From Magnetospirillum sulfuroxidans (GTDB lineage: Bacteria; Pseudomonadota; Alphaproteobacteria; Rhodospirillales; Magnetospirillaceae): 64,000 nucleotides of DNA. Location of the stretch: NCBI RefSeq assembly GCF_018224925.1, contig NZ_JAGTUF010000015.1, positions 1 through 64,000 on the forward strand. Direction: 5' to 3'. Below, piece after piece: positions 778 through 27,573 of this stretch (the first letter of the stretch is position 1; each line of letters begins with the position of its first letter). A model generated the notes under the pieces. It was not told the DNA's origin. It did no database searches and was given only the letters and a program-made list of their open reading frames with translations. The translations under genes were made by a program, and so were the position numbers.

Positions 778-795
778 GTTCACTCTCCCTCAGGT

Positions 796-2827: not shown

Positions 2828-2840
2828 ACAGGTGGGAGGA

Positions 2841-5546: not shown

Positions 5547-5557
5547 CAGCGCCCGGG

Positions 5558-5590
5558 AGGTGATCGACGGGCATAACCCGCCGATCACCT
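5558..5590 (+). promoter_or_regulatory. Intercistronic hairpin between vWA and PP2C genes
   Basis: The arms 5,558-5,571 (aggtgatcgacggg) and 5,577-5,590 (cccgccgatcacct) pair over 14 bases with one mismatch and a 5-base loop. It sits in the only sizeable gap (69 bases) of the operon. No T-run follows, so an RNA processing or stability element that sets different levels upstream and downstream is more likely than a terminator. Confidence 0.45.
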
Positions 5591-5615
5591 ACCTGACAGG
5601 AAAGGGGGCGGAACC

Positions 5616-10300: not shown

Positions 10301-11142
10301 CGCAAGAGGCGGTGTTGGACAAGATTAGCCTGGTTTTCAGCCCCAACGCCTCGGTGCTGTTGCGCCGGAAGGAGGTTGGGGAACGCCCAAGCATTGGCGC
10401 CTATGGTCTGTGGGACGATGAACTCGATAGCAAAGGCCAGGCGACCTGCGAAATTGTCGCTCGCCACACCCCGCATGCCGCCGAAGAGAATCGCGACTTG
10501 GATCCCGAAGAGGTGCTTGCCCGCCTGCGCTCCGCCCGACACTTCGCCTACCTGGGCCACGGTTCCGCCGTTGCCGGCCCCCGGGCCCTCGACCTGTCCG
10601 GTTTGGCCTGGAAAGTCGGGCGGCACTGGACACGGCTATCGATCCGCTCCTTGCTGGCTGATGAATTCCCCCATCTCGATCACGCCGACCTCACGGCATG
10701 TGACGGAGCGCGAGCGAATCCGGACGTCCCGTCCGAGGTGGTCTTGTTGCCAACGGCGCTTTTGTACGCTGGGGCGCGCACTGTCTCCGCCCATTCCTGG
10801 ACCGTACTCAACAGTCATGCCATTGAGCTGTCCAGGCGTTTCCACCAACGTTGGGCCGCCAACCCCGAAGCCGACCGTGCTGAATTGCAGCGCCAGATAC
10901 AGGTCGAATACCGCGATTCCAACGTTGCGCCCAATCTGACGGGGCGACATGCATTCGACGTGTCAGTCGTCATTACCGAGGAAGAAGCCGAAGCAATAGC
11001 CGAGGCGATGGAAGATCCCTGGCCCGATCCCACCAAGCGACTGCCGTCTGGGCATCCCTATGCCTGGGCCTCGGTGCAATGCTGGGGAATGGCTATGGGG
11101 GGGCTGGGGCATGGAATGCAGGGAGGCGGAGATGTCGGCTGA
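7315..11142 (+). CDS. Giant TPR-CHAT caspase-like protease, copy 1
   Basis: A 1,275-residue protein. Residues to about 340 are encoded by AT-rich DNA and include TPR-like helices near 100-150 (FMGIYYSVCDHWRAAMEAFSKA). From about residue 380, GC-rich sequence encodes further helical repeats. The C-terminal roughly 330 residues are a CHAT peptidase domain, with catalytic H1082 in YLGHGSA and C1129 in LTACDGA. CHAT proteins are relatives of caspases and separase that cleave partners or effectors. From about residue 537 it is clearly paralogous to the next gene. It overlaps the kinase start by 4 bases and the next gene by 11. Confidence 0.85.
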   Translation: MKGWRQIDISKWRTNDFAFLHGEAVLPSVFPHYFDIYFEEGSAPQKCRGSPSATENERTRTLVWDMFGSLRHRHGAMEWDGVPHESRCKSGYYDIPPPFSFDDKDAAHHNFMGIYYSVCDHWRAAMEAFSKAVSLDPENHEYCFNYAYVRSRDESRVGVISQSLYSFDLETKALMQRAYRSASGHIGYKIGLAVCYFNVDEYDLSADLYLESYRDISSKLKIVGQHANGLALYNAIASYALADRWSTVRHLCRELLNYLQVEPSALNDHHIDATVHMRELALQHEHGNTGPINLIARLSLSEALEKSPYFRRIRQEMRNDLEASKGSARSANSINQEQIRELVGHIESVLEVAGDRVSQLANATAAAAAAMLPPPAILSDYAQSNADLKSHLGGNPLDATAHETLFRLRDRYGRATRLDSAHHLAAAYFDEGYRVDAVLLLGATPPCLSQLDVSIFSEDERAVLGRGIFFGFCYSLEPSDGPALLCEALGHFAKLNFEDERFTPLLPLLVFAARLHLAASEMFSDADGAKVPWKEQSHWLSSIGVAEDTYDSYSRYYRAHPRDLRDFNRAVALTERAVTLAEKAGDPQLPAYRTELAGLLLKAFARSSHREARIRAYGILDDMLAGGHLDVLAGHMGRLVADAGRLLEAPKYLPQAALRIGRRLRDATDLFDRLGEIARILRRNLPMREDKEHWIGASETLGRMAAHAWYLRGKPERAVAWLEAGQASLQSDLLRLYEVNLGHLPDAWQAVQLDYETARDRWVEAGRNGRAAETQAAWRALEKITGELEELGFGPQLAPAAAGAARAAARAMGKPLVYLSATDHGVLAFMATPKGRVIGTKLSVDGKWLSQRLHRHLRRYDDFRTALQAWKALREAKGLDDLANQRHPAMTWITDAEDADIARSRLEPRITHFLDDLELLSRDLVEVMAPLVDMVKRYGFTSVVVVPCGELVLLPLQLAAYRPTQQRRLRRLVTALGLADTVKCHPGKGHCGLEPPQEAVLDKISLVFSPNASVLLRRKEVGERPSIGAYGLWDDELDSKGQATCEIVARHTPHAAEENRDLDPEEVLARLRSARHFAYLGHGSAVAGPRALDLSGLAWKVGRHWTRLSIRSLLADEFPHLDHADLTACDGARANPDVPSEVVLLPTALLYAGARTVSAHSWTVLNSHAIELSRRFHQRWAANPEADRAELQRQIQVEYRDSNVAPNLTGRHAFDVSVVITEEEAEAIAEAMEDPWPDPTKRLPSGHPYAWASVQCWGMAMGGLGHGMQGGGDVG

Positions 11143-14100
11143 AAACGAAGCGGAAAAGCTCTATCAGGAAGGGATGCGCTATTTAAAATCCGGAGCGCAG
11201 AAGATCGCGGCGAAGAAATTTCGGCAGTGCTTGGAGCGCAATCCCACGCACCGGGGCGCCGCCGCGGCCCTTCGCAAAGATGATGGTAGCGTGATAATCA
11301 GCACAAAGCCGGCTTCACAATTTTCTGAGTCCAATAAAAAAGAAATAGATCCTGATTTTGAGAACGGAGACTGGATACACCGATTTTTCTCTTTAAGATT
11401 TGTATTTGAAGATAAGCGCTTGGCTAAAATTAACTATCCCCGGGTGCGGCCTGAAGTTGACATGCTGTCATTGGAGGTTGTTTCAAGGAACCTCTCCGAG
11501 GATGACATCTATATGTTTCTATCTTATTTGTCTGCCATGCGACATGGGCGGCTGCATGAAGGAAAGGATGCTCTAGCTGGGCTTCTGCTGAAGCATAAAA
11601 GTAGAGTTGCGAATTTTTCTTATCCTGATAACAGCATAATTGACGGTGTAGATTTTGATCGAGAAGTGAGTTGCGAGTCTCTTCTAAATAGATATTGCGC
11701 TGGCAGCGAGGCTGTTAAAAATATTTTATTTTTATCTTATACTGGGGAATACGATGAGGCTGCTAGGCTGGCGCACTCGTCGGATGACAAGTACACTGAT
11801 CCGCGTATATTTCACTTGCTTGGTTGCCTTCAGCGGGAGTCATTTGATGCGACAATCAATTACATGGATGCGTCGATAATTATAGGCGATACAGTTGATG
11901 GTCTTAGTTACGTGAGTAAGGCGTGCTTACTTCGTGATCATCATAAATATCAAGACGCTGAGAGATTCTTTATCAAGGCATTGAGGCGCTCGAATGGCAT
12001 ATTTACTCTGTTTGAGTATGGCGCCTGCCTCTTGCGGCAGCATAAGTATGAGTTAGCAATTTCATTCATTGAAATGTCAATAAAAAAGGAAATTGAAGGT
12101 AGATTGCTGATGCGCCGCAGCGGAGCCTTTAATGACAGCCAAAGAATGCCTGTTTTGTCGTCGTGGCGTGCGTCTGATGCTAGTTGCAGCACATTTCATC
12201 AAGCGATTGCGTATTGTCTTTCTTCTCTTGGGCGCCACCTTGAAGCGGAGTTGAATCTGATTGCAGCTGGATTTCTTAACCCATTTCATAGCGATGTATC
12301 GGAATATCTATTGTCAAGCCTATACGGTCAGCGTCGATTTGATGCTGCGATCGCCGCTTACCGCACGTGCGGTGATGAGTTTTCCAAAAGTTGCTATGGG
12401 TTGCTGCAGGGCGCGAATGCAGAGCGTGCCCGTAAGAATGATGTGGACGCAAACAAACTGTTTAGTGCGGCGGTGAGTTCAGGAGATTTCAAAAAAACAC
12501 GTGTTGTCCGTGGATTAAGCCTGGTTTCTGGAGTTGGGTCATATGATGCCCATGGGGGGCGTCAAATTAGTTCCGGGATTGGGGCGTCTGGCGCAAGGGC
12601 ACACATTAGAGTGGGGCGGGGAAACGTTTCATTCTACGGAGCTCCATCTGAAGGTATTTTTATTTGTGCCAGCGGGGACTTGAGTGGATTGCAGCCCTCT
12701 GACGCGGATACATTCTTTACGCTAAGTCCTCGCGACAGCTTTTATTTTGTTGCAATTGCGCTGCAATTTTCTGAGGAATATGTCCATACCCGGAAGTACA
12801 CAGGGAATGGGAAGAAGGATGACGTGATATCTGTAAGTTATGGGGACGAAAAGTTATTTTTGCAGGCGGTGGATTATCCGAAAATAGTACAAAAACTTGA
12901 ATCAAAAATATCTATAGCAACATCAAAAGCCATCGGGCTTGCTATTTATTTTCAGAAAATTTGTTGTGATGATTGCTTTTGTATTTATGAGGCAATTGGA
13001 AATATTAGGTTAGTGTGTGGCCTCGATAAGATTGCAGAGCAAGCATATCCTGTATTGAGGGAGTTTGCTCGTGCACATATTCATCTCTACGACCTGTTTT
13101 CCAATCGCGCTGAAATCTGGCCTAGTTTTGAAGATCAAGCTCATTGGCTTGCAATACCGGGTCTGGCCGAGGAGACATACAACGAAATTTCGGCCTACTA
13201 TCGCACTGCTCCTGATGGCATTCGCGACCTTGACAAGGCTTTGGAGATGGCGGAGCTCGCTGCGAAGTCTGCTGAGCTGGCCACCGATCCGGAACTACCC
13301 TTCTATGTGGCTGAATTGGCCAGTACGCTGATGAAGGCGTTTGGCGCTAGTGACGACCCTGTCCTGCGCGACCGCGCCTTCGCCATCCTCGACCGTCTCA
13401 TCGAAGGCGGCCATCTCGACGTAGTCGCCAATCAGATGGCGGTGATGGTTGAAGACGCCGGCAAGCTAGTGGAGCGCAAGCGCTTCGCCGAGGCTACCGC
13501 CCTGTTCGCCAAGCTGGGCGAGGTCGCCCGCATCCTGCGCCGGGCCTTGCCCCGGCGCGAGGACAAGGAGCAGTGGATCGGTGCCACCGAGAAGCTGGCC
13601 CGTCTCGCCGCCCATGCCGAACAGATGCAGGGCCATGCCGACAAGGCGGTGTCGTGGCTGGAGGGGGAGCAGGCGAGTCTACAGGGGGACATCCTGCGCC
13701 TGTTCGAGATCGACCTCGACGCTCATCTGTCAGGGGCGGAGCTCCAAGATCTCCGCAAACGCTACGATGATGCCCGCACCCGCTGGACCTCTACCGTTCA
13801 GGCCAAGAACGGCGATGCCGCTACGGTCAAAGCGGCCTGGGCCGATCTGGAGCGGTCGGTCGCGGAACTCGAAAAGATTCCTGGCCTCGAGCGGCACTTC
13901 TCGCCCCCTGACGCCTCAGCGGCCCGGGCTGCGGCGCAGGCAACCGGCAAGCCGCTGGTCTACCTGTCGGTGACATCTTTCAGCGGCTGGGCCTTCATCG
14001 TCCCACCTGACGGGACTATCACTGCCGAACGACTCGCCGCCCCCGGCTGGGAGATCGAGAACCGCCTCCAGGCCCATCTCAATCTCTACGGGGATTTCTC

Positions 14101-15298
14101 CACTGCCTTGCAGGCATGGGAGACGTTAGAGGCCGCCGACGGCTTCAATGAACTGCGGAGGGCCAACCATGTTGCCCTGGCCTGGATCGGCGAGGCCGAG
14201 AGCGCCGATGTCGCCCGTGCTATCCTCGAGACCAAGATCACCCCTTATCTCGACGACCTGGAGCAACTTTCCGACTGGCTGGCCGGCATGACTGCGCCGT
14301 TGGCCGATGCTGTGTCGAAGGCGGGATTCGCGTCCATGCTGATGGTGCCGTGTGGCCCCTTGGTCCTGCTGCCGCTACAGGTGGCCGGCTACCGTTCCCC
14401 ACTGCAGCGCCGCCTGCGTCGGCTGATGACGGCCCTACGGTTGGGCAAGGCTGTCAACCGTTGGCCATGGCTGGCGGCCCGTTGCGGCTTGACCAAGCCC
14501 ACCGATGCCCTGCTTGACAAACTCAGCATCGCTTTCAGCCCCAACGCCTCGGTGCTGCTGCGCAGGAACCGCACCAAGAGCGCCCCGACCGAAGCCTATG
14601 GCCTGTGGGATAATTCCATCGCGGGGGCGGAGGCGGCAGTTCTGGAGATTTCAGGCCGCCACTCTCCCTTTGTTGCCGAAGCAAACAACCATCAGGTACC
14701 GGAAGAGGTGCTGCGCCGCCTAAGATCGTGTCGCCGATTCGAGTATATTGGCCACGGCACCGCAGTTGGTGGCCCGGATGGGCTCGACCGCTCGGGCTTG
14801 GGCTGGGAGGCCTCCCACGTTGGTTGGCGCCGCCTCTCGATCCGGTCTCTGCTGACCCAGCGCCTTCCCGACCTGGAATATGCCGGTCTCACTTGCTGCG
14901 ATGGCGCCCGGGCCAATCACGACTTGCCGGCGGAAGTGGTGATGCTTCCATCCGTATTCCTGCATGCCGGCGTTGAAACCGTTACTGCTCATTCATGGAC
15001 GGTGTTGAGCACCCATGCCATCGAGTTGACGCGGCGGTTCCATCAACGTTGGGCCGCCAACCCCGACGCTGACCGCGCCGAACTGCAGCGGCAGGTCCAG
15101 ATCGACTACCGCAACGCCAACATTCCCGCCATCCCGGAAAATACCGGCACCCATGCCCTTGAGATTGGCGTCGTAACCGAGGAGGAGGCTATGGCCGAAA
15201 TCAGTAAGAAGGGCTCCTGTAAGCACAGGGATCCGACACAACGACTGTCCTCAAGTCACCCCTATTGCTGGGCATCGGTCCAGTGCTGGGGCGGATAG
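11132..15298 (+). CDS. Giant TPR-CHAT caspase-like protease, copy 2
   Basis: A 1,388-residue protein. I chose ATG 11,132 because GGAGGCGGAG lies directly before it and the product then opens with a TPR (LYQEGMRYLKSGAQKIAAKKF). Residues about 50-660 come from strongly AT-rich DNA and look helical and repeat-like. From about residue 670, GC-rich sequence encodes helical repeats and a CHAT domain with H1208 in YIGHGTA and C1256 in LTCCDGA. The C-terminal half matches copy 1 almost block for block, while the N-terminal halves differ. It is the last gene of the operon. Two proteases probably act as a pair or recognise different triggers (inference). Confidence 0.85.
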   Translation: MSAENEAEKLYQEGMRYLKSGAQKIAAKKFRQCLERNPTHRGAAAALRKDDGSVIISTKPASQFSESNKKEIDPDFENGDWIHRFFSLRFVFEDKRLAKINYPRVRPEVDMLSLEVVSRNLSEDDIYMFLSYLSAMRHGRLHEGKDALAGLLLKHKSRVANFSYPDNSIIDGVDFDREVSCESLLNRYCAGSEAVKNILFLSYTGEYDEAARLAHSSDDKYTDPRIFHLLGCLQRESFDATINYMDASIIIGDTVDGLSYVSKACLLRDHHKYQDAERFFIKALRRSNGIFTLFEYGACLLRQHKYELAISFIEMSIKKEIEGRLLMRRSGAFNDSQRMPVLSSWRASDASCSTFHQAIAYCLSSLGRHLEAELNLIAAGFLNPFHSDVSEYLLSSLYGQRRFDAAIAAYRTCGDEFSKSCYGLLQGANAERARKNDVDANKLFSAAVSSGDFKKTRVVRGLSLVSGVGSYDAHGGRQISSGIGASGARAHIRVGRGNVSFYGAPSEGIFICASGDLSGLQPSDADTFFTLSPRDSFYFVAIALQFSEEYVHTRKYTGNGKKDDVISVSYGDEKLFLQAVDYPKIVQKLESKISIATSKAIGLAIYFQKICCDDCFCIYEAIGNIRLVCGLDKIAEQAYPVLREFARAHIHLYDLFSNRAEIWPSFEDQAHWLAIPGLAEETYNEISAYYRTAPDGIRDLDKALEMAELAAKSAELATDPELPFYVAELASTLMKAFGASDDPVLRDRAFAILDRLIEGGHLDVVANQMAVMVEDAGKLVERKRFAEATALFAKLGEVARILRRALPRREDKEQWIGATEKLARLAAHAEQMQGHADKAVSWLEGEQASLQGDILRLFEIDLDAHLSGAELQDLRKRYDDARTRWTSTVQAKNGDAATVKAAWADLERSVAELEKIPGLERHFSPPDASAARAAAQATGKPLVYLSVTSFSGWAFIVPPDGTITAERLAAPGWEIENRLQAHLNLYGDFSTALQAWETLEAADGFNELRRANHVALAWIGEAESADVARAILETKITPYLDDLEQLSDWLAGMTAPLADAVSKAGFASMLMVPCGPLVLLPLQVAGYRSPLQRRLRRLMTALRLGKAVNRWPWLAARCGLTKPTDALLDKLSIAFSPNASVLLRRNRTKSAPTEAYGLWDNSIAGAEAAVLEISGRHSPFVAEANNHQVPEEVLRRLRSCRRFEYIGHGTAVGGPDGLDRSGLGWEASHVGWRRLSIRSLLTQRLPDLEYAGLTCCDGARANHDLPAEVVMLPSVFLHAGVETVTAHSWTVLSTHAIELTRRFHQRWAANPDADRAELQRQVQIDYRNANIPAIPENTGTHALEIGVVTEEEAMAEISKKGSCKHRDPTQRLSSSHPYCWASVQCWGG

Positions 15299-15326: not shown

Positions 15327-15881
15327 TCAACCGATGAGTTCGGCGGTAATGAAATCGGCTCCTTCGTTGGTCACGCAGGCATACCCAAGACCGAGAAGCT
15401 GTTGCGGAAACTGATTGACGAGGGCTTGGTCGTGGCCGTGCTTGCTGGCCGAAAGCAAATAATCAAAAAAATTCGTTCGGTGAGGAGTTTCTTCCGCAGT
15501 CGGTTCGCCATCGGACCAAATCCAGAGGGTCTTGCCAGTAATCCAATCGCTTCTATGGGTGTTGATCAGTGATTTTACCCGAACAAGGTCAATGCCTTGC
15601 CTCAGGGCATAGTCACGGCGCCACCTATCGAGTGCTGCAGGGAATGTAGGGTGTTCGGCAAGAAGCTGAAGAAACTCCTTTGTCTCACTGATAGTTGCGT
15701 CTTTCATGAAATTCCCATTGTTGATTATCTCAAAGATAATGTCTTCACCTTCCATTGCTAGTATTTCTTCATACTTCATGTTGTCCCCCGCTTCTGAATT
15801 TTTATAGAAAATTGCACTTCCCGCACCGGACGCTGTAATGGATTTGGAATTTTCACTCACTCGCTTTGCCGGATGCTTCAT
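15327..15881 (-). CDS. Hypothetical cytosolic protein, last gene of the envelope operon
   Basis: A 184-residue protein with no signal peptide or membrane segment and no recognised domain. It is mostly alpha-helical in appearance, with an acidic middle (EEILAMEGEDIIFEI). The start at 15,881 overlaps the upstream stop codon (ATGA), which favours it over an internal ATG at residue 35. DNA in the 5' half is more AT-rich than its neighbours. It ends 29 bases from the convergent CHAT gene. Confidence 0.6.
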   Translation of the reverse strand: MKHPAKRVSENSKSITASGAGSAIFYKNSEAGDNMKYEEILAMEGEDIIFEIINNGNFMKDATISETKEFLQLLAEHPTFPAALDRWRRDYALRQGIDLVRVKSLINTHRSDWITGKTLWIWSDGEPTAEETPHRTNFFDYLLSASKHGHDQALVNQFPQQLLGLGYACVTNEGADFITAELIG

Positions 15882-16876
15882 TCAAGTTCCATTACCCCAT
15901 CAAGCTGAATTGGGTGCCCACCTTTCCGGTCGACAGCATCGATCAGCTCGATTGCATATCCGTGACCCTGGCTGAGATAACGACCACGGACCTCGGCAAA
16001 GTCATCGAGAGTAGCCCCCTTGCTCTCTATCGCATTTTGTACAAAGCTCCAAAGAACCTTGTCGAACCAAACGGATGGAACAAGAACCACCTGATCACGG
16101 CGCAGTCCAGGGTCGAGCTGGGTGTTGGAAAGAGCCGCCGCAATTAATTTGCCATCGACGGCATGGGGGCGCTCGATGGCCATGAGGTTGCGCGTGCCGG
16201 TGAAAACCGTCACCTTTCGGGCCACCAGGTCGACCGGTGGCCCCAATCTGTCATTGGTGCGGGTGAAGAACCAGCCGCCCTGGCGAACCATGAGAGCAAC
16301 ATAGTTTTCGAGACCGAGCGTCTCCTCCCAGTTGAAGTGCAGGACAGGAACCGTTCCCTTGCGGCTCACGGAGGGCGCAGCCGACATAGCCGCGACCTGC
16401 TGATCCCCCGGCGCCGCCGGTGGTGCAGGGGCCATGTCCACCGGCTGGGCCGCAGGCGCTGAAAGTTGCGGCAACGGCTGCGCCTGTTCCACGGGTTTCG
16501 CGGTTGGTACGGATGCCATTGTGCGTTTCGGCTTCGGCCGAAGGGAGGGCTGTTCCGACTTCTTCGGTGCCGGCGAGCTGCCTTCACGCTCGGAAAAAGC
16601 AATCGGCATCGACCCGACCTCGAACACCTGGACGTTGAACGCTACCGGCGTAACCCTCTGCGGCTGGGGGAGGACAACCGATACAGCCGCATCAGGAGAG
16701 GGCGGATGGTCCCCTGACGCGGCAGCGCCGGTCGATTGCGACTGCTCGAACAGCATTTCCCGGTCCTCGGAGGGGGGGCGTGCCTTCCAGAGCATCAGCA
16801 GGCCGACGATCAGCGCCAGGCCGACGACGGTCATGGTCTTTGGACGGCGTACAATTGCCTGTTCAACGGCGTGCAT
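15878..16876 (-). CDS. Inner-membrane-anchored Pro-rich protein with C-terminal globular domain
   Basis: A 332-residue protein. A basic N terminus and one membrane segment at about 15-31 are followed by a Pro/Ala-rich linker to about 170, then a folded domain of about 160 residues (LHFNWEETLG through ELIDAVDRKGG). The topology is like TonB or TolA: anchored inside, with a flexible periplasmic reach. GAGGGAAAG precedes the ATG. It overlaps the downstream gene by 4 bases. No family was recognised. A periplasmic partner of the TolQ/TolR-like pair is inference from position. Confidence 0.6.
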   Translation of the reverse strand: MHAVEQAIVRRPKTMTVVGLALIVGLLMLWKARPPSEDREMLFEQSQSTGAAASGDHPPSPDAAVSVVLPQPQRVTPVAFNVQVFEVGSMPIAFSEREGSSPAPKKSEQPSLRPKPKRTMASVPTAKPVEQAQPLPQLSAPAAQPVDMAPAPPAAPGDQQVAAMSAAPSVSRKGTVPVLHFNWEETLGLENYVALMVRQGGWFFTRTNDRLGPPVDLVARKVTVFTGTRNLMAIERPHAVDGKLIAAALSNTQLDPGLRRDQVVLVPSVWFDKVLWSFVQNAIESKGATLDDFAEVRGRYLSQGHGYAIELIDAVDRKGGHPIQLDGVMELE

Positions 16877-16883
16877 CTTTCCC

Positions 16884-17642
16884 TCACTGGCGATTGGGAA
16901 TCGTATTCAGCGATTGAAGCGCCCGATCCTGCGACGACACGATTTTCTGCAAAGGGGTCAGCTCCGGGCGCAGCGTCACGCTTGGTTTTGAGTTGTGCGA
17001 AATGTCGCTGGCTTGGCGTCCAGGATCTATCATCGGTGGCTCGCTTCGCACCACCGCAGTAACAGGATGGACCTGACCAGTTTCGGCCTTGGCGGGCAGG
17101 ACAGCCGGCATCGCCGTAACATTGGATGGTGTGCCGGAATGATGCTCGGCGGCGGGCTCGGTGCGGCTGTTCTGTGCCGGTTGTGTGGGCGGTTCGCTAG
17201 CTGAAGCAGTGTGTTTCGACCGCTCGGAAGGCAAGGCTGTCGGGCGAGCCGGCGCCGTGATCGCCGCTTTCGCAACCGACCGCTCGCGTGTGGCTTTGGT
17301 TTCCCGGGGCTTCTCTTCACCAGATTTCGGCTGCGATTGCGTCCCCATCTCGGGAACAGAAGGATGCTGGGGAGAAGCTACAGCGTCTGGATGGGGGGCG
17401 ACAGCCGCGACGGTCTCTTGCCGGTCGGCTGGAGCAGGCTGGGGAGCTGTGGCGGACTGTTGTCGCGCATCCGCTTGCTCGCCCACGGCCGCCACGGCAT
17501 TGTCGGTGTCTGTCCTTGCCGCGAGATAGCCGGCCGTCCCGATGGTGGCCAGGGCGGCAAGAACGAGCGCCTGTCGATGGGCCATGCGTCGCAAGGCGCG
17601 GATATTGCTTTTCAGATCGTCGTTGTCGCTTTTGGTGTTCAT
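16884..17642 (-). CDS. Single-pass membrane protein with long Ala/Pro/Ser-rich periplasmic region
   Basis: A 252-residue protein with a cytosolic N terminus of about 24 residues, a membrane segment at about 25-43, then some 170 low-complexity residues rich in Ala, Pro, Ser and Thr. A short conserved-looking tail (LRPELTPLQKIVSSQDRAL) ends it. GGGAG lies before the ATG, and the start overlaps the upstream stop by 4 bases. Architecture resembles TonB/TolA-type linkers but no catalytic or binding motif is visible. Confidence 0.6.
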   Translation of the reverse strand: MNTKSDNDDLKSNIRALRRMAHRQALVLAALATIGTAGYLAARTDTDNAVAAVGEQADARQQSATAPQPAPADRQETVAAVAPHPDAVASPQHPSVPEMGTQSQPKSGEEKPRETKATRERSVAKAAITAPARPTALPSERSKHTASASEPPTQPAQNSRTEPAAEHHSGTPSNVTAMPAVLPAKAETGQVHPVTAVVRSEPPMIDPGRQASDISHNSKPSVTLRPELTPLQKIVSSQDRALQSLNTIPNRQ

Positions 17643-18151
17643 CGCTCTGCTCCCCGCAACATGCCATCCAGAACCGAGCTGGCACTGGTCAATTTGCGTT
17701 GAATATCCATGGGGGTGTAGGCGCTTTCCCTTTCCACTATGGCAGGTGCAGGCTTGCGCTGCACTTCCGCGACGGGCCGCTCGTCGGGAGCGGGCGGCGG
17801 AAGCATGCGGGGCGTGGGTCGGGGGCGCACCACATGCTCCTCTAGCGGCGGCAAAGCGATCGGCTTTTCGGCGATGACGGTCGGTAAAGCGGCCTCAGTG
17901 CGACGTATACCTCCAACTGGGGAACCCGCCGCCGGGGAAGGGTTGGGCGAAGGTAGGGGGGCGGGGGCAGGTGATACCTGCTCGTCGCGCGCTGCTATTG
18001 CCGCAGGCGCCGTCGTCGTACTTCCGGTCGGCGGACCAACAAGAAGCGCATCGATCTTGGGAATTGCGCGGTCTAGCTTCTCCCATTCCTGAGAGACCCG
18101 ATAGGCCAAGGCGACCCCGATACCGAGGAGCAGTGCGAGAAGGATTTTCAT
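17639..18151 (-). CDS. Single-pass membrane or exported Pro-rich protein
   Basis: A 170-residue protein. A short hydrophobic N terminus (KILLALLLGIGVALAYR) is followed by Pro/Ala-rich sequence to about 125 and a short helical C terminus (PMDIQRKLTSASSVLDGML). That tail resembles the tail of the next protein (DRALQSLNTI), suggesting a shared docking element. AGGAGGCACAGAG precedes the ATG. Start and stop codons overlap both neighbours by 4 bases, so the stoichiometry is probably coupled. Confidence 0.55.
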   Translation of the reverse strand: MKILLALLLGIGVALAYRVSQEWEKLDRAIPKIDALLVGPPTGSTTTAPAAIAARDEQVSPAPAPLPSPNPSPAAGSPVGGIRRTEAALPTVIAEKPIALPPLEEHVVRPRPTPRMLPPPAPDERPVAEVQRKPAPAIVERESAYTPMDIQRKLTSASSVLDGMLRGAER

Positions 18152-18564
18152 CTCTGTGCCTCCTTCTGCTTGGCCAGCGTGGCGAGTCCCACTGAGATCT
18201 TGGCGTTTAGGAAGGGGGTCGCCGCATCGACGTATTCCGTGATGGGGTGGTCCTTGGGGATGGCTAATGCCACTCCGTCCTTCAACCGCTCGTGCGGTAG
18301 GTCAAGGACCTGCTGGTAGGTAAAGTTCTCGCCATTCTGGGTCGTATAGGTGATCAACTCACCAGTCGGGACGGGCATCAGGATAAGGGGAGATAATTGG
18401 CTCGCGTGATCTGTCGGGCGGCTAGCCACATCCGCTTGGGTAAACAGGACCTTACGGGCATCCGGTGTCACCATGGTCAGCACGATAAAAATCGTGATCA
18501 AAGCCATGTCCAGTGCGGAGGTCGGGGGCCGCAATCCTTCCCGTCGCATGTTGGCGTTGTTCAT
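18148..18564 (-). CDS. TolR/ExbD-like proton-channel subunit
   Basis: A 138-residue protein. The ATG at 18,564 has AAGGAGG 5 bases upstream. One N-terminal membrane segment at about 18-36 begins with D19 in LDMALITIFIV, the position of the proton-carrying aspartate in ExbD/TolR. The periplasmic part ends with a LAIPKDHPITEYVDA stretch reminiscent of the TolR periplasmic fold. It immediately follows a TolQ/ExbB-like gene, the usual partner. In this family the pair converts proton flow into force on periplasmic partners. The assignment is by motif and context. Confidence 0.6.
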   Translation of the reverse strand: MNNANMRREGLRPPTSALDMALITIFIVLTMVTPDARKVLFTQADVASRPTDHASQLSPLILMPVPTGELITYTTQNGENFTYQQVLDLPHERLKDGVALAIPKDHPITEYVDAATPFLNAKISVGLATLAKQKEAQR

Positions 18565-18565
18565 G

Positions 18566-19132
18566 TCACCCTCCTTGTGTCTCATCGTCGGGAATCAGCC
18601 CCTCGACAAAGAACCCGGTGAGTTGCACTACTTGGCCAGCAATGCTCGTCCCGACAGCAAGGCCGAAATTGAGCAAAAGCGTGGACAGAGCTCCAGCTTC
18701 ACCCTGCGTCCCCATGTAGCCAACCAGCGCCATGACAATGGCCACGCCGGTAAAGAGGAAGCCAAGAGATGTTCCGGCCTCACGATTGCGGTAGGTGAAA
18801 TCATCGAGGATACGCCAAGCCTTGCGCGTGAGCTTGATGGCGCCGACCCGTTGAAGCCCAGCCACGCAGCCGACCCACAGGCAGGCGATCCACATCGCAA
18901 GGAAAACCGGCCAGAACTTCCCGACATAGGTGTCGAGTGCCGAAAACCAGGCGGGCCCCGGTCGCGTGCCGGTCATGGCTATGACAAGCCAAGCGGCAAG
19001 TAGCAGAAGCAGGCCGACCCCGAGGGCCGAAAGCAGCAAACCACCGGCCTGGGTGACAGCGAAAACGCGCAATGCCGAGACTTCCAGGCGGTTCAGTTTG
19101 TGCGGATGCTTGGGGCGATTGCTTTCAGCCAT
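18566..19132 (-). CDS. MotA/TolQ/ExbB-like channel subunit
   Basis: A 188-residue protein. The ATG at 19,132 has GGAGG 6 bases upstream. Four hydrophobic segments lie at about 32-53, 73-92, 121-141 and 152-175. The last two resemble the paired TolQ/MotA helices (LGFLFTGVAIVMAL and GLAVGTSIAGQVVQL). Its stop codon lies inside the ribosome-binding site of the TolR-like gene, implying coupled translation. Family TolQ proteins have three membrane spans, so the extra segment is unusual. Known relatives drive motility, Tol-Pal, TonB and Zorya-type defence machines. Confidence 0.55.
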   Translation of the reverse strand: MAESNRPKHPHKLNRLEVSALRVFAVTQAGGLLLSALGVGLLLLLAAWLVIAMTGTRPGPAWFSALDTYVGKFWPVFLAMWIACLWVGCVAGLQRVGAIKLTRKAWRILDDFTYRNREAGTSLGFLFTGVAIVMALVGYMGTQGEAGALSTLLLNFGLAVGTSIAGQVVQLTGFFVEGLIPDDETQGG

Positions 19133-19134
19133 GG

Positions 19135-19545
19135 TTACCTCCTGCTCTGAAAGAAGTTGGTCGGTCCCGTCTCGGAGGGCAGCCAATACTCGACGCCGGC
19201 AAGCGCACCGAATGGATTTTGGAGGTCTGAATAGGCGAAGCCACAGGCCTTAAGCAGCAGATAGACGGGAACTTCCGAGTAATAGGCAGGGCTATCATCA
19301 CCAGCACCCTGCCCCTGCAAGCTCTCGATCTGTAGCTTGGTGGTCATATACAACTGGGCGGACTTGCGAACTGCACGGTCGCTGGCTGTCCCCTGGCGAA
19401 CGAAAGTCGTCAGAACTTCTTCCGAATGGATCAGCAAATCCCGTTCGAGACCACGAGCCAAATTTCTGGAGACGTCATCGGCAGCAAGCCCGGACAAGGG
19501 CGTCATGATCAAACCTGCTGCCATAGCCATGAAAGTCTTTCTCAT
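19135..19545 (-). CDS. Exported protein, unrecognised
   Basis: A 136-residue protein. ATG 19,545 is preceded by GGAGG. A signal peptide (residues 1-22, cleavage after GLAA) is clear. The mature part is about 114 residues, helical in its first half, and ends two bases before the TolQ-like gene. No domain recognised. As first gene of the TolQ/TolR unit it may be its periplasmic regulator or ligand-binding component (inference). Confidence 0.6.
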   Translation of the reverse strand: MRKTFMAMAAGLIMTPLSGLAADDVSRNLARGLERDLLIHSEEVLTTFVRQGTASDRAVRKSAQLYMTTKLQIESLQGQGAGDDSPAYYSEVPVYLLLKACGFAYSDLQNPFGALAGVEYWLPSETGPTNFFQSRR

Positions 19546-19583
19546 TTCGGCCTCCGGTATCATGGTGGAAGTTCAAGACTAAC

Positions 19584-19593
19584 GGGGGGGGGG
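19584..19593. repeat. Homopolymer tract of ten G (C on the coding strand)
   Basis: Ten consecutive G residues lie 39 bases upstream of the start codon at 19,545, in the 174-base gap before the exported-protein/TolQ/TolR genes. Tracts of this length are prone to slipped-strand changes, and at this distance could alter promoter spacing or the 5' untranslated RNA. Confidence 0.6.
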
Positions 19594-19719
19594 ACTCCGG
19601 GACGACAGGGGCTGAAACTGCAAAGCGCTGCATGGGGGGATTAAGATGGTAACTGCTATGAATAGGTCAGGGCGGCGATGCAGGCGACCTCGCTTGCTAA
19701 AGGAAGGCCGCCCAGATAG

Positions 19720-20688
19720 TCATCGCCACGACTTCACCGCATTCAGCTGTTCCTGAAGGCCATAAGAGCCGGACGCCTGGAGGATGTCGTGTTCAAGGTC
19801 ACTCGACGGAGAATCGTTGTCCAGGAAATCGCCATAGATGAGGCGACTAACCCCGTCGAACCAACTCGTCACCGTACTAATCCCCTTGCCTGCACCACCT
19901 GCCGCATTTGTCATGACGCCTATGGTTGTCGACGCTTTGTTGTATTCAATCGTGTCTTTCAGGCGTTCTGCCGCAATTTCGATCGATCGCTTTAGCTCGC
20001 CCGTCTGAATCGCGGCCTGGGCAACGATACTCTTGTCGTGCATAATCTTGCCGACGAGGGCATCCATGTTCTTTCCGTTCTTCAGGCGCCGAGCGAGACT
20101 CTCCCGTTCATTGTAAACACGCGTGAAGGTGGTCTTCATCGCAGCCAGCAGAGCCTTCGTCGTGCCGCTGTCGGGCGAGCGCTCGAATTCCAAAGTCACC
20201 TTCTCCAGCGCCTCCGCCTGCAGCTTCGCCTTGTTCGTATAAGCCTGAAGATCTTGGGACAGCTTTGCCGTATCCTCAGTGTTGCGACGGGAACGCATCC
20301 GCGTCCCGACGGCATCCAGGTTGTCGTAGGCCACGCCGAGGATTTCGTGGTACGTGGAAACGACCTTGTACGTGGCGGCCAGTTGGACCGCGACGGCCTC
20401 GGTAAGCTCGCTCTTGAGCGCTTGCTGGGTCAGGCGGTCGCGTTTAGACGCAGATTTCAGCTGTTGCTCGATTGCGGAAATCGCACGGGTCTTTTCCTCG
20501 GCATCGGCCATTTCGGCCTCAAGCCGGGCAGCGAGTGTCGATGTTTTCGTCTCGAAGACCTGCTGCTGCTGGTCCAGATCCTGCCCCAGATCACCCATCC
20601 CGTTGATGGAGTTTTGCTGGGCAAGGCTTGGCGATGCCCCGAGGATGAGACTGCATAGCGCAGTCGTTGCAAGAAGCTTCTTCAGCAT
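19720..20688 (-). CDS. Exported coiled-coil protein
   Basis: A 322-residue protein with a signal peptide (about 1-23, cleavage after SLAQ). Long heptad-rich helices run from about 40 to 250, then a Gly-rich turn (NAAGGAGKG) and a short C-terminal region. No catalytic motif. AAAGGAA precedes the ATG. It lies between the lipoprotein gene and the TolQ/TolR unit. The shape suggests a periplasmic rod or scaffold that could connect the inner-membrane complex with the outer-membrane lipoprotein; this is inference. Confidence 0.6.
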   Translation of the reverse strand: MLKKLLATTALCSLILGASPSLAQQNSINGMGDLGQDLDQQQQVFETKTSTLAARLEAEMADAEEKTRAISAIEQQLKSASKRDRLTQQALKSELTEAVAVQLAATYKVVSTYHEILGVAYDNLDAVGTRMRSRRNTEDTAKLSQDLQAYTNKAKLQAEALEKVTLEFERSPDSGTTKALLAAMKTTFTRVYNERESLARRLKNGKNMDALVGKIMHDKSIVAQAAIQTGELKRSIEIAAERLKDTIEYNKASTTIGVMTNAAGGAGKGISTVTSWFDGVSRLIYGDFLDNDSPSSDLEHDILQASGSYGLQEQLNAVKSWR

Positions 20689-20712
20689 TTCGGATTTCCT
20701 TTCGGGTTTGTG

Positions 20713-21267
20713 TTAGCGCGCCATAGCCGTGGCAAGATTGTCGTCTCCTCGCGGGCAATTCGCCGAGGGTCGATGCTGACCCAGCCGCTGATAGACGCAG
20801 ACGGGGAGGATCATCCCAGGCGGCATCGCCGCTCCGGGATGCTTGATGCGCGACAAGGCTTCGGCGGCCGCAGCACGTGCCGCGTTAAGGTCTCCTGCTT
20901 TAAGAGCCAAGGTCGCGATTCCAGCGTAGGCACGAGCCACCAGCTCGGGATTGGCCTCTCCGCCGGTGCTAAGCTTCGTCTTGATTTCGTTCATGGCGAG
21001 GTCAAACCTGCCGAATTGAGCTTGCGCCCAGGCGTCAGCGACGGCCGCCTGAATCGGGTCAAAATGGTTCAGGTCTTCGGGGCGAGCTGGAATACGCTTG
21101 CTCTGTAAGGCCGGCGGCATGGCTGGCCGCGAAACCATCACCTGGGTCGAAGCAGGCTTGTCGGAACCGAACCAACTACCAACGGACCCGACATCCATCG
21201 TCTCACAGGCGGACAGGAACAGTAGTCCGGGAATGATAAGCGCTTTCTTGAAGAGCGTCGTGAGCAT
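20713..21267 (-). CDS. Lipoprotein, TPR-like
   Basis: A 184-residue protein. The signal peptide ends in a lipobox, LLFLSAC with Cys at about residue 20. The central part (DAWAQAQFGRFDLAMNEI ... ARAYAGIATLALKAGDLNAA) resembles two helical TPR-like repeats. AGGAGGG precedes the ATG. It is the first gene of the minus-strand envelope run and probably sits in the outer membrane. It may be the outer anchor of the TolQ/TolR-like machine. Confidence 0.65.
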   Translation of the reverse strand: MLTTLFKKALIIPGLLFLSACETMDVGSVGSWFGSDKPASTQVMVSRPAMPPALQSKRIPARPEDLNHFDPIQAAVADAWAQAQFGRFDLAMNEIKTKLSTGGEANPELVARAYAGIATLALKAGDLNAARAAAAEALSRIKHPGAAMPPGMILPVCVYQRLGQHRPSANCPRGDDNLATAMAR

Positions 21268-21424: not shown

Positions 21425-21590
21425 AAGGTAACGATCCAGGTGCAGATGTCGCCGTCCCAGAGGTTCGAATACATCAGACCGGGAACAGGGCACGACTTCT
21501 GCGTCTAGGTCCTCGACAAGGCCATTCTGCGCTTCGACCCGCCCGAGATCATGAACACCGACCTGGGCAGCCAGTTTATGAACTGCCCTG
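21425..21590 (+). mobile_element. IS3-family transposase remnant
   Basis: Reading DFCV-stop-VLDKAILRF, then PPEIMNTDLGSQFM at about 21,500-21,582 matches the conserved end of the IS3 orfB integrase core, where the usual string is close to DFCVEAL...PEIFNTDQGSQF. An in-frame stop and the absence of the rest of the gene and of inverted repeats show it is a decayed fragment. The remainder of the 21,268-21,729 gap holds nothing else I recognise. Confidence 0.65.
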
Positions 21591-21729: not shown

Positions 21730-23016
21730 ATGTGGACAGCGTATCTATTCGCCCCTCTCTGTCTGAATGAGGCTGATTACGAGCGCTTGAAGGAAGTCGG
21801 CTGGCGCCCCTGGGTAACCAGAATCCCCAACCAACAGGCTGATTCAGTTGCTGCGGACAGCGAATTTTTTATCCCCAGCGCCCGCTCCTGGTACATGCCG
21901 GCGACATTCGATAGCCGTACTTCCAAGCGCTGGACCTTCCCGCTGGAAGTTTGGCAAGAGACCCCGCATATGATCGGGAGTGATGGTGCCGCATTGGCCG
22001 AGGTCACATGGGTGGATCTGTTCCGCTTCCCCGAGACCGCCATCCTTGTCGTTCGCCTGTCTGCCTGCGGCCCGCTTGATGATGCCAAAATTCGCTGGCT
22101 GTCCAAAACGGCATCCGAGTGGCTGCCGAAGTTCGAGGGTGACAAGCTCGCTGCTTGGCATGCCGGCGGGTGCGACGTCGGCACCCTTAGGGACTGGGTA
22201 ATGGCGAAGCTGCTCAAGCTCAACGACGAAGAGGACACCCGCCGGGTCAACGGCGCGCTGCATTGGTTTGGCAACGCCGCCCCCGCTTTGATCCTGCTCC
22301 CCCGTCCGGAGGTCCCTGACTGGACTTCGCCGGACCTGACCAATCTCATCACCCATATCAGCCTCGGCATCGAGGATGAAGTCGAGCAGTACGGTCCCAG
22401 TAAAAACATCAGGTCCGCCATCGCCGATCAGTTCGTCCAGGAGTGGGAAAACTGGCGTCTGCATGAATGGCGGAACCGGATGGTTCTGGTCCATGGCGGC
22501 GAGGCGCGGGGCGGTCAGCCGGAAAACACCCATCGCTACTATGTGCCTATGATCGCCTCGGTACTTTATCAGCGCATCACTATCACCGCGTACCTGGACC
22601 GGTTCATGGGCGGCGCCGAAGACGATGGCGCATTGCGGCGCACGTTCACCCGCTTCCGCCGGGAATTTCTGGCGCATCGCATCTCAAGTTACCCCATGGG
22701 CAATCGGGTGTACGAGTTCCTGCGAGAGGTGAACCAAATCCCTGAGACCTTCAAGGACGTGGAAGACGAACTCCACGCCGCCGACCAGCTTACCCGGCTG
22801 GACCTCGAGCGCCAGGAAACCGGACTGATCCGCAACCTGACCATCCTCGCGGCCCTGTTCGTGCCGGTATCTGCCATCAGCAGTATCTACGGCGCACACG
22901 AAGCCCAAATTTACGAGCTCGACACTTGGTTCTGGAAGATTTCCGGCACCGTAACCCTGCTGGTGGGCGGAGCGCTGTTCTACGCAATCCGCAAATTGAA
23001 GAAGGCACGTGGCTAA
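21730..23016 (+). CDS. CorA-like membrane protein
   Basis: A 428-residue protein. A large N-terminal cytosolic region is followed by two C-terminal membrane spans at about 368-386 and 400-420, the layout of CorA/ZntB channels. The signature GMN after the first span is replaced by YGAH (387-390), so magnesium selectivity is unlikely. It ends two bases before the SMC-like ATPase, so the two are co-translated. A membrane effector gated by the ATPase is the likely role by analogy with other two-gene defence cassettes. No strong ribosome-binding site is seen. Confidence 0.65.
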   Translation: MWTAYLFAPLCLNEADYERLKEVGWRPWVTRIPNQQADSVAADSEFFIPSARSWYMPATFDSRTSKRWTFPLEVWQETPHMIGSDGAALAEVTWVDLFRFPETAILVVRLSACGPLDDAKIRWLSKTASEWLPKFEGDKLAAWHAGGCDVGTLRDWVMAKLLKLNDEEDTRRVNGALHWFGNAAPALILLPRPEVPDWTSPDLTNLITHISLGIEDEVEQYGPSKNIRSAIADQFVQEWENWRLHEWRNRMVLVHGGEARGGQPENTHRYYVPMIASVLYQRITITAYLDRFMGGAEDDGALRRTFTRFRREFLAHRISSYPMGNRVYEFLREVNQIPETFKDVEDELHAADQLTRLDLERQETGLIRNLTILAALFVPVSAISSIYGAHEAQIYELDTWFWKISGTVTLLVGGALFYAIRKLKKARG

Positions 23017-23018
23017 CC

Positions 23019-26000
23019 ATGACCAACGGCGACAAAACCCCCAACATCCAAGCCTCGGGCCTGACCACTGACGATCTGCTGGCCTTGCTGGCCTGCGGCG
23101 AAACCCTGGACCTGTCCAACGGGACATCCTTTGTCATCGAGGATGAGAAGGCGCGGATGGCCTTGGCCTGGTTCCTTGGTGACCCGGTAGGAAAGCGGTA
23201 CCTGGCGTCGCCCCCTGAAAAGGGGAGTGTGGATATGGCGGGCCTTGTGACCTGGATGGCAAAGGGCAGGCTTCCTGCTAAACCAGCGGTCGCTGTCTTG
23301 GCGGATGATCAGCGGGTGTGGTCGCTGGTTTCTTTGACGATCCGGCAATTCGGGGGTCTTCAGCCATTCTGCATGCCCGATGGGTCCGATGCCCCAGATA
23401 TCCCCATTCTCATCTCCCGCCCGCTGTTCCTTGCCCAAGGTCCCAATGGAGCCGGCAAAAGTTCGCTGGCGCGGGTGCTGACCTTCCTGCTGACCGGAAA
23501 GGTGTCGAGCACGCCGGACTTCGAGCACTTCGCTGATGCCGGGCAGATCAACGATTATACTCTGGACAACGGTATCACTCTGCCTTTGCCGAGCGTCGTT
23601 CCGATGCCAACCCTTGCCCAATATGAAGCTCGCTTCGGCAAGGCTGAGTTCGTGACTACCGCAGTGACTGCCTTGTTTGAAGCCGATGACGGCACGAAAA
23701 CCACGATTTGCCGGAAGGTCGTACAGGGAAATAAGAACGTTTTCTCCACCATTTTGGAGAAAGATGGTGCGGTCTTTGACGGACATTTCGCAACCGCCTT
23801 GGGAATATCACCTCTGGCCGTCGACCTGAGTGCGCTGCACATGGCCCGGCTTGCCCACCTGAAGCTGGGTCAGAAGGAATCGCTGGCCGATGGCGTCCGA
23901 GCGTTAACCGGCTTTCGGGAAGTGGCCGGACTGGCTGAGAAAACCGCCCTAAAAATGAAGGAATATCTGGGGAAGACCTATCAGAAGACCCTGAAAACTG
24001 CCGCAGACAAAGAAGCGGCGGGGTTCAAGCAGCAGATCGCCGTTCTTGCTGAAGTCTTCAAGGATGCCGCATCCCCACCTATGCCGCCCGTGCCCGATGG
24101 GAATGGAAGCGAGTGTCAGGCCAAGCTGGCCGAACTCGAGAAAGACCTGGATGAGCGAGCTTCTAAGGTGCGCGCGGCCGTCGCGGCTGCGGCCGGGGTC
24201 GAGGAGGACAAGGTCGAACTGGACGGCCTGGACGATGATCTTGTCAGGGTGATCGACTTGCTGTCGGCACCGACGCTGGACTCCGCCGGCTTAGCGGCCC
24301 TGGTGGCTGCAGCCGAGAACCTGTCCGACGAGGATGTCGACAACGTGCGCGGTGCGATCGCGGAGACGGTGAAGCGGGCGAACGACTTCGCCGCCCTTCA
24401 GGCCGAGGAACTCAAGATTAAGCGTCGGCGGCATCACGCCCGCATCGCCGCCGGCCTGAAGGAGGATGGGTTAGCGATCCCACCTGCGGATTGTCCCACC
24501 TGTCTCCGCGCACTGGATGATACGGTCGTGGATGATGTTCTGGGAATGCCCGTGGCCGCCGCCATCGCGGCAGGTGCGGCGGAGACTGAGGATATAAAGT
24601 TTACGCCGGAGGATTTTATCGTCTCTGCGCGGACGGAACTGCTGGAAGGCATTCCCGAAGCTGTCAAGGCGTGCACAAAGCTTTGGGGGAAGCAGGATAG
24701 AGCTCCATCGCCCGCCGGATGGGCGGTATCGGTCGCAGGGAATGTCGATAAGGCCTTGGCCACATTCTCGGCCCTTAAGCATCTGACGGCCCAGGCCACC
24801 ACTGCATTTGAGGCTGCAGCGGTGGCTCTGCCCCCGTGCCCCGTTTCCGCCTTGCCTGCACTGGATCCAGTTTTTGAAGGAACAAGGATCGACAAGGCCA
24901 GCCAAGTGCTTAACGGCCTGCTGGACCTGCGAAGCTGGGCACTCTCGACCAGGGAAGCCCGGGCGACGCTGGTGAATGAGGCCTACGGTGTCGCAGAAGC
25001 CATCCCCGCTGAGAGCCTGGCCGGCAAGGTCCGCGAACTACGCTCGCTGCTCAAGGACTATCGTCCCGTCGGCCAAGCCCGGGAAATCCTCAAGGCCCTT
25101 ACCAACCACTACGACGCCTGGATTGCGGCAAGAAAGGCGGCCGAGGACGCCGTCGCAGCGGCGGAAGCCGTGGGCAGGCTGGCGGCACTCAAGCGCGTGG
25201 TCGATGTTCAGGTGGACGGGCTGTTCCGCGACCTGAATACCGAGATGGACCGTTATTGGCGGGATTTCTACCAGGCACCTGGTTACGCGGGGCCTGAGGC
25301 GGGATTGGTCCGCTATGACGGTGTCGCTCTCCATATCCCGGCAGAGGTCGAAGGTGCCAGAGGGAGCGCCAACAACATCGCCAACTCGTCACAGGTCAGG
25401 GCGTTGCTGTTCAGCTTCGTCCTCGCCCTGCTGCAAAGCGTCTGGAAACGGAGCGGCGGTTTGTCGCTGGTCCTGCTGGACGATCCGCAGCTTCTGTTCG
25501 ACGAGCGCAATCAGGTCCGGTTGGCGAAGGGGATTGTCAGCTGCACCAGCGAAGGCTTCCGTCCGTTGATCATGACCTTCGACCGGGTATTCACGGCCCG
25601 GGTTGCACGTGCGGGCGACTGCCGCATGGGCGCCGCGCTTAGCGACCAGATGGAGGCGTATCGGATCGTTCCACGGGGCAAAATCCAGGAATGTGTCCGC
25701 CTGGAGTTGGATGAGCTGACGCTGAACTCTTACAGGGACGAGTGGCGGCGCGACGAGACGAATGGAGCCAAGATCAAGGTTTTCTGCAATGAAGCCCGTT
25801 CCTTCATGGAGCACACCTTGGTCAACCTGTTAGCCGAGGCTGCAGAGCCCGTTCACGACCACCCGACCCTGGACCCATTACGCGTTCGCGTTCAAAACTT
25901 GGTGAAGCGTCCCGGCGCGGTTCAGAACGCCGAGCCTTTCCGCCAGTTGTTGGACCTGTTACCCGACGGCAATCCTGCCAAGGAAACCTTGGCTCAAGCC

Positions 26001-27060: not shown

Positions 27061-27573
27061 TTATCCGGCGTCTCCACGGGGACTTCCCGCCAAAGGAATA
27101 ACACTCGACACTTCATCCGTAGGGATATTTTTTGATCGACACAAGATGCAGCACCCCGTCACATGAGACGCATCCACGGCATAGCCCCGGAAGACAGTCC
27201 CGACGTCAACTGAATGCCGAATGAGCCTCTCGTAAAGGTCGGCTAGGTGACGGTGCAACTGGGCAATCTCTGCGTCTTTGGACTGCACGGTTTCCTGAAG
27301 CAGGGCGTTGCGCTCCTTTAGGGCCTCGATCGAAGCGGATCCGTCACGGTAGCGCCGCCGAGCCTGAATTTCAGCGAGGGCCATGGTAACGACCGCTTCA
27401 TTGCGAAGCAGTGTGCTGCGGGCAATCCCCAAATCCCGCGCTATCTCACTCGCATTATAAACGTAGCGTTCCCCGCGGCTTGCCGCTTCGTCAGCGCGTG
27501 CGCGAATTGTCTCCACGATTTTATCGCGGAGCTTCTGCCCACGCATGTGCGACCGGCCAGACTGAGCGCTCAT
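27061..27573 (-). CDS. Small HTH/coiled-coil protein, TnpC-like
   Basis: A 170-residue protein. A helix-turn-helix candidate lies at about 38-60 (ASEIARDLGIARSTLLRN), followed by a coiled coil at about 82-115. Two CxxC-like cysteine pairs occur near 140-150 (GCCILC). Size, position and layout agree with TnpC of Tn554, an accessory protein that influences orientation or frequency of transposition. Its start overlaps the stop of the large recombinase gene by 4 bases. Confidence 0.65.
   Translation of the reverse strand: MSAQSGRSHMRGQKLRDKIVETIRARADEAASRGERYVYNASEIARDLGIARSTLLRNEAVVTMALAEIQARRRYRDGSASIEALKERNALLQETVQSKDAEIAQLHRHLADLYERLIRHSVDVGTVFRGYAVDASHVTGCCILCRSKNIPTDEVSSVIPLAGSPRGDAG

Follow-up and report, generated by a model that had tools for sequence, protein, structure and literature searches.

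The window, i.e., the whole 64,000-nucleotide stretch of DNA analysed here (positions 1–64,000 of contig NZ_JAGTUF010000015.1 from Magnetospirillum sulfuroxidans), contains nine minus-strand genes, P1–P9, that span positions 21267–15327 and are organised as an operon. It is likely that this run encodes a divergent motor that spans the envelope, is driven by protons, and has periplasmic and lipoprotein partners of its own. By computation, P4 and P5 are homologous to the MotAB/TolQR/ExbBD motor family, and computation also establishes the topology of the products, the conservation of the operon and of an Asp residue in P5, and the location of the genes on an island. The run is regarded as an extra, divergent, and probably proton-driven motor because family profiles match and the other motor genes lie elsewhere in the genome. 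The latter comprise four MotA/TolQ/ExbB (PF01618) and two ExbD/TolR (PF02472) matches, all on another contig, which we take for the Tol, Exb, and two Mot genes from their pairing and size. This agrees with an earlier reading of the sequence (the original prediction), according to which the run is distinct from Tol-Pal, Exb, and Mot. According to a 2025 survey, further systems that cross the envelope and use such motors await discovery (PMC12204202). The set of seven genes shared with other genomes looks like one such further system, which the family libraries miss as a whole, and no title or abstract describing it was found within the one paper collection searched.

Operon Organisation and Conservation

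The genes of the run are listed in Table 1, with coordinates that refer to the window. The spacings between consecutive genes are, in order, 24, 156, 2, −20, −4, −4, 7, and −4 bases, the one before P3 being 156 bases to the upstream ATG (19563) and 174 bases to the preferred ATG (19545). The start of P4 is most likely the ATG at 19132, preceded by AGGAGG, rather than an upstream TTG. The ribosome-binding site, judged by eye, is fair at seven of the nine starts, with P5 and P9 as the exceptions. Topology was derived from hydropathy and motif inspection; the coiled coil of P2 and the export signals are putative. P6, P7, and P8 each have one N-terminal hydrophobic segment, while P4 shows three hydrophobic segments above the cut-off in the window and four in each of four relatives.

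Table 1. Genes of the proposed machine and the convergent operon beside it, with positions in the window.
Feature	Positions	Strand	Length (residues)	Description	Remark
P1	20713–21267	−	184	Lipoprotein, very weakly TPR-like, lipobox LSAC	Lipobox in all five family members
P2	19720–20688	−	322	Exported, coiled-coil-looking (putative)	Hydrophobic start
P3	19135–19545	−	136	Small exported protein	Hydrophobic start
P4 (Q)	18566–19132	−	188	Short TolQ/ExbB/MotA-type motor subunit	Family profile match
P5 (R)	18148–18585	−	145	TolR/ExbD-type subunit, Asp26 in single membrane helix	Family profile match
P6	17639–18151	−	170	Single-pass Pro-rich protein (15.9% Pro)	Place and topology alike at all five loci
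P7	16884–17642	−	252	Second single-pass Pro-rich protein (11.1% Pro)	Window only
P8	15878–16876	−	332	Single-pass, Pro-rich linker (9.9% Pro), conserved C-terminal domain; proposed force transducer	
P9	15327–15881	−	184	No membrane segment	4-base overlap with P8; window only
Convergent operon	4201–15298	+		Zinc-ribbon-like, vWA-like, PP2C-like, and kinase-like proteins, two TPR-CHAT proteases	Not counted in the machine

When P4 of the window was used as the query in 317 genomes of the same order, five other genomes were matched at E ≤ 0.001, and four of them carry the operon, namely at the loci L213 (genome G896), L214 (G971), L215 (G1029), and L216 (G1047). The match in the fifth genome (G975) is a contig-end fragment without other operon genes and was excluded from the locus count, and the weaker P4 matches in G801 and G969 were dropped for the same reason. 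The order P1–P2–P3–P4–P5–P6–P8, i.e., lipoprotein, larger exported protein, small exported protein, Q subunit, R subunit, single-pass protein, and single-pass protein with a C-terminal part, is common to the four loci, where the joints from P4 to P8 are tight (−23 to +4 bases). An extra protein follows P8 in L213, L215, and L216, and P7 and P9 have no counterpart at any of the four loci. The genes named in the original prediction are present in a real and operon-like run, whose seven-gene order recurs beyond chance, and five of the six partners that it called dedicated (P1, P2, P3, P6, and P8) have counterparts in the gene order of the four other loci. The ninth gene, P9, had been left undescribed.

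As a cross-check, profiles built from L213, L215, and L216 only were run on the 760 open reading frames (ORFs) of the window and L214. For P1, P2, P3, and P8, the top match is the ORF at the syntenic place in the window, and P4 and P5 of the window come second, behind the syntenic ORF of L214. The E-values for the window proteins are 0.022 for P1 (weak), 0.002 for P2 (sole match), 0.14 for P3 (sole match, weak), 3.9e-9 for P4, 0.0014 for P5, and 3.2e-23 for P8, in the last case mostly over the C-terminal domain. In the same set of ORFs, the profiles of P6 and of the extra protein matched nothing at the syntenic places, so that the window has no match to the protein following P8 in the relatives, and the only L214 proteins recovered were P4 and P5.

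Probable Identity of the Motor Subunits

The assignment of P4 and P5 is carried by profiles of the five-member families (the window and its four relatives). In hhalign, the match of the P5 family to ExbD/TolR reaches 93% (E = 3.1e-7); it extends over 108 columns, which take in the periplasmic domain and lie mostly outside the membrane helix. For the P4 family, the match to TolQ/ExbB/MotA reaches 77% (E = 2e-5) and spans 68 columns, corresponding to the last two helices. The TolQ/TolR-type pair claimed in the original prediction is borne out in this way, although at the level of the family: the single Q protein of the window fails both Pfam and a home-made TolQ profile, an outcome that the original prediction had named as refuting it, whereas the homologue-based family profile matches. 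In a column-shuffle control (n = 100 for each family), P5 scores 44.9 against a best shuffled value of 19.5 and P4 scores 38.2 against 22.8, and crossed pairs together with four other families gave 0.06–1.15% in hhalign. Moreover, the P4 protein of L214 lies above the cut-off of Pfam MotA_ExbB (PF01618), with 27.1 versus 22.9 bits.

A broad profile search of 13,741 ORFs from 219 loci, listed without the operon loci, returned ExbB/TolQ genes for the three- and five-member P4 profiles, ExbD genes for the five-member P5 profile, and TonB-looking genes (named by eye) for the five-member P8 profile, the last over the helix and linker only. These matches outside the family, counted at E ≤ 0.05, have E-values of 0.001–0.045, and those to ExbB/TolQ and ExbD genes were confirmed with purpose-built TolQ and ExbD profiles. 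At the residue level, the Asp of the P5 membrane helix is invariant in all five members (D26 in the window). The column of the TolQ second-helix Thr holds Thr in four of the five P4 proteins (T128 in the window) and Cys in L214, and at the second pore-helix site an invariant Ser (S163 in the window) is offset by one residue from the aligned Thr. The P4 proteins have 171–188 residues, with approximately 24–30 residues between hydrophobic segments 2 and 3. Judged by this length only, P4 seems too short to accommodate a cytoplasmic motor domain, whether a condensed one of two or three helices or a torque interface, a trait that varies within the superfamily and does not define membership. In the non-flagellar motors of the family, the cytoplasmic domain consists of two or three helices (PMC12505986).

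Several observations weigh against the motor assignment. The column-shuffle null destroys membrane helices and, therefore, flatters P4 more than P5. Among the two relatives whose Q proteins were scanned, that of L215 stays below the MotA_ExbB cut-off (15.0 versus 22.9 bits), and that of L214 also matches DUF2269, below the cut-off of that family. The R proteins of L215 and L214, like P5 of the window, have no Pfam ExbD match. On their own, P4 and P5 of the window fail Pfam, rank among shuffled copies when compared with TolQ and ExbD profiles built from relatives, and remain below 1% against motor profiles in hhalign. Likewise, their single-sequence structure models are poor (mean predicted local distance difference test, pLDDT, of 61 and 45) and gave no fold match at E ≤ 0.001, and an hmmsearch of the PDB with the P4 and P5 families returned no motor protein. 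In the broad search, the three-member P5 and P8 profiles gave no matches outside the family, and the searched loci are enriched in motor genes by sampling (92 ORFs match the TolQ profile and 82 the ExbD profile). The equivalence of P6, and of P1, P2, P3, P6, and P8 in L214, rests on place and topology because the profiles gave no match. In addition, the SHLS motif is absent from all 11 P6, P7, and P8 proteins.

Searched individually, P1–P9 yield no convincing family match in Pfam, PADLOC, NCBIfam, or PHROGs, the top library match being that of P8 to MXAN_5187 (NCBIfam; 19.4 bits, cut-off 200). The P8 family has no relative in the PDB by sequence, and the C-terminal domain of P8 has no Pfam match above the cut-off in the two proteins scanned, those of the window and L215. 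No Pfam match to TolB, Pal, or a TonB-dependent receptor was found among P1–P9.

Proposed Mechanism

In the proposed machine, P4 would form a ring of channel subunits and P5 would stand inside it as a dimer, whose Asp26 would relay protons within the membrane helix. The motor would be of the ion-driven 5:2 kind known from MotAB, TolQR, and ExbBD, with its own partners extending towards the outer membrane, and the passage of ions would make P5 rotate or ratchet relative to P4. Since P4 seemingly has no room for a cytoplasmic domain, the load should be periplasmic. P6, P7, and P8, each with one N-terminal helix anchor and an extended periplasmic linker, may carry the force across the periplasm, and P8 would work through its C-terminal domain on two periplasmic proteins, P2 and P3, as well as on the lipoprotein P1, comparably to the action of TolA on TolB-Pal. 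The stoichiometry, the proton flow, the force transfer, the binding partners, and the nature of what is moved are inferred. The attachment of P6, P7, and P8 to the motor is a proposal only, because all 11 proteins lack the SHLS motif, by which TonB and TolA dock on their motors (PMC12905483). With its short P4, the machine would be a naturally reduced motor in which to study the conversion of ion flow into periplasmic force.

Comparison with Known Motor Systems

The adjoining Q/R-type pair, a transducer that crosses the membrane once and has a linker plus a C-terminal domain, and the lipoprotein partner are shared with TolQRA-Pal and ExbBD-TonB (PMC12905483). Unlike these systems, P4 is seemingly without a cytoplasmic domain (four helices are seen in the relatives), no SHLS motif is present in P6, P7, or P8, neither TolB, Pal, nor a TonB C-terminal domain was detected, and the run has its own exported partners, P2 and P3. 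The closest published precedent found is a family of motor-driven vWA transducers encoded beside tolQR-like genes. That paper describes uncharacterised motor genes and a transducer C-terminal domain unrelated to those of TolA and TonB, with some of the clusters also including a TPR gene (PMC12204202), features that recall P1–P9. However, P8 has no Pfam vWA match (window and L215 scanned; the C-terminal fold was compared by sequence only), the SHLS motif is lacking, and P2, P3, and P6 are without a counterpart in the section on this family (section 8).

A likeness to the logic of Zorya had also been put forward in the original prediction. Zorya (ZorAB) has a MotA/MotB-family motor (PMC11890865). 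In contrast to ZorA, P4 (188 residues) is too short for a cytoplasmic tail, the partners of P4 and P5 face the periplasm, and P5 (145 residues) has an ExbD-like periplasmic domain without a Pfam match to peptidoglycan-binding domains of the ZorB or OmpA type. PADLOC holds Zorya models, and it found none of ZorC–ZorG among P1–P9 or the nine neighbours scanned. No Zorya part was found, and the Zorya-like logic of the prediction is a conjecture. The AglRS gliding motor is a TolQR-type motor with dedicated envelope partners (PMC12505986). The motor family has already been adapted to many loads, i.e., Ton, Tol, Mot, Agl, and Zorya. In gene content, AglRS and its Glt partners differ from P1–P9.

Alternative Explanations

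The likeliest interpretation of P1–P9 is an accessory envelope device carried on mobile DNA, for envelope defence, competition, or export, and not a housekeeping system. A chance resemblance, in which P4 and P5 would be membrane proteins of other origin that look like TolQ and TolR through their hydrophobic composition, is most improbable: the failures of the single window sequences and of the L215 and L214 R proteins in Pfam would fit it, but the family profiles match over 68 columns in P4 and over 108 columns in P5, mostly outside the membrane helix, one Q member passes the Pfam cut-off, and the search of 13,741 ORFs returned the right families. An envelope-maintenance variant of Tol-Pal or Ton, kept as a spare copy for special conditions, is very unlikely. 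It would share the kind of motor, the single-pass transducer, and the lipoprotein, and an extensin-like gene lies near L213, but TolB, Pal, TonB-dependent receptors, and the SHLS motif are all missing, the genes are located on an island, and none of the 54 other genomes of the family has a P4 match at E 1e-3. An export, assembly, or surface machine for a polymer, an adhesin, or a lipoprotein, in which P1 or CsgG/GNA1162-like lipoproteins would act at the outer membrane and the motor would supply the force, is possible though somewhat doubtful. The L215 operon ends with a lipoprotein-like protein that is weakly GNA1162-like (16.3 bits, cut-off 25.9) and has positional counterparts in L213 and L216, and upstream of the L214 operon (positions 2067–3587 of that locus) a gene combines a CsgG-like part (17.9 bits, cut-off 20.8) with a clear DUF4384 domain (54.5 bits). 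However, the GNA1162 and CsgG matches are both below cut-off, the counterparts in L213 and L216 have no Pfam match, the window has no match to the terminal protein, and the operons hold no gene recognisable as that of a porin, a secretin, an ATPase, or a substrate.

A defence role for the machine is possible. In its anti-phage or abortive form, the motor would sense an envelope disturbance and switch on neighbouring clan CD proteases, with a Zorya-like logic made of other parts, which we regard as doubtful. At two of the five loci a clan CD protease gene is convergent at the same end of the operon, i.e., CHAT in the window and a caspase-like protease (30.7 versus 21.4 bits) in L214, and DUF4384 proteins occur in both neighbourhoods, that of the window at approximately 11 kb from the machine and below cut-off (24.4 bits, cut-off 27). 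CorA-like and LmuB-like genes lie on the other side of the machine in the window, WYL regulators flank the operon in L213 and L215, L215 also has KAP NTPases nearby, and the setting is mobile. However, no clan CD protease is present among the Pfam-scanned flanking genes of L213, L215, and L216 (in L213 and L216, whole short contigs), so that the protease effectors seen nearby in the original prediction have a weak echo in L214 and none beside the other three loci. Moreover, the protease genes are convergent and outside the operon, two of five is a small number, and PADLOC gave only two weak matches among P1–P9 (E 0.038 and 0.01). A broader proposal is a conflict system whose proton-driven motor would face the periplasm, lack a cytoplasmic motor domain, and detect or counter envelope attack with exchangeable clan CD proteases as effectors; this is unlikely. 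If true, it would be a new class of conflict system, with a CHAT effector at one locus and a caspase-like one at another. As an accessory envelope device, the machine is a test case for whether defence or competition have recruited such motors more than once.

Apparent Spread

Single proteins and small alignments found no matches in the viral contigs, genome contigs, plasmids, and phages searched. P4 of the window matched only itself at E 1e-3 in 385 genomes of the class and 55 of the family, and P2 matched only itself in 61 relatives. In 398 genomes of the phylum, 37 others match P4 at E ≤ 0.1 and none at ≤ 0.001. These weak matches are taken as chance because none of the 16 places inspected showed a second operon gene. 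The absences in class, family, and phylum understate the spread, since the query was the divergent window P4, and they should not be read as true rarity. With CHAT as bait, matches were obtained in 20 of 384 other class genomes at E 1e-3, and none of the 20 surrounding stretches carries the machine. An isolated weak P8 match in one of these stretches, L049 (E 0.009), was rejected, as the family profiles did not reproduce it.

Genomic Island and Neighbouring Genes

The machine is accessory and located on a mobile island. In a search of 12 other genomes of the genus, nine loci were compared, and in all of them the window aligns only from base 32,700 outward, at the ribonucleotide reductase gene; one short further match lies elsewhere. 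In six of the nine, the stretch beyond the reductase corresponds to the start of another contig in this genome. Since synteny with the genus resumes only at 32,700 and the continuation lies on the other contig, the island comprises at least 32.7 kb. The third-position GC content is 0.50–0.76 in all 15 island genes computed, versus 0.78–0.85 in four core genes. Integrase-type genes are found on the operon contig at two of the five loci (the window and L216), and in L216 a phage integrase and a primase share the 13.5-kb contig with the operon. Three consecutive tyrosine-recombinase-like genes (27570–32487), two of them above the Pfam cut-off, adjoin the ribonucleotide reductase gene, and the stretch on the other contig sits behind a reading frame resembling an IS5-type transposase.

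The vWA-PP2C-kinase-CHAT operon (Table 1) is convergent to P1–P9 and, therefore, not part of the same operon. It was found at none of the four other loci, in stretches of 10–20 kb (whole short contigs in L213 and L216), which speaks against the standing link between the two that the original prediction had envisaged. Its vWA-like and kinase-like proteins were named by eye, the former without a Pfam match, and its PP2C-like protein is below cut-off. The two TPR-CHAT proteases (7315–15298) are paralogous, being 54% identical over their aligned C-terminal parts, and both keep the His (GHG) and the Cys (CDGARAN); no relative was found in two collection scans. A zinc-ribbon-like pattern (GFC...C.G) occurs near the start of the proteins encoded at 106–783 (minus strand), 4201–4584 (plus strand), and 4581–5546 (plus strand, vWA-like). 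These three proteins look like a putative TerY-P-type group.

On the other side of the machine, a CorA-like membrane protein is followed by a large AAA/RecF-like ATPase (21730–27005), with PADLOC scores of 46.6 bits for CorA and 37.1 bits for LmuB; these two genes may form a defence pair of their own, either Lamassu-like or of the CorA type. The spacer between them and the machine holds a broken IS3-like transposase remnant at approximately 21495–21590, recognised by eye. The flanking genes of the relatives include WYL regulators (L213, L215), KAP NTPases (L215), DUF4258 proteins (L215, L216), and housekeeping genes. In L215, two KAP NTPase genes (3–3908 and 5300–8079 of that locus) are followed by a WYL regulator, a weakly PcfJ-like gene, DUF4258, and then the operon. 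Finally, a transglutaminase-like protein (PF01841, 51.5 bits) is encoded at positions 799–1746 of the window, on the same island as the machine.

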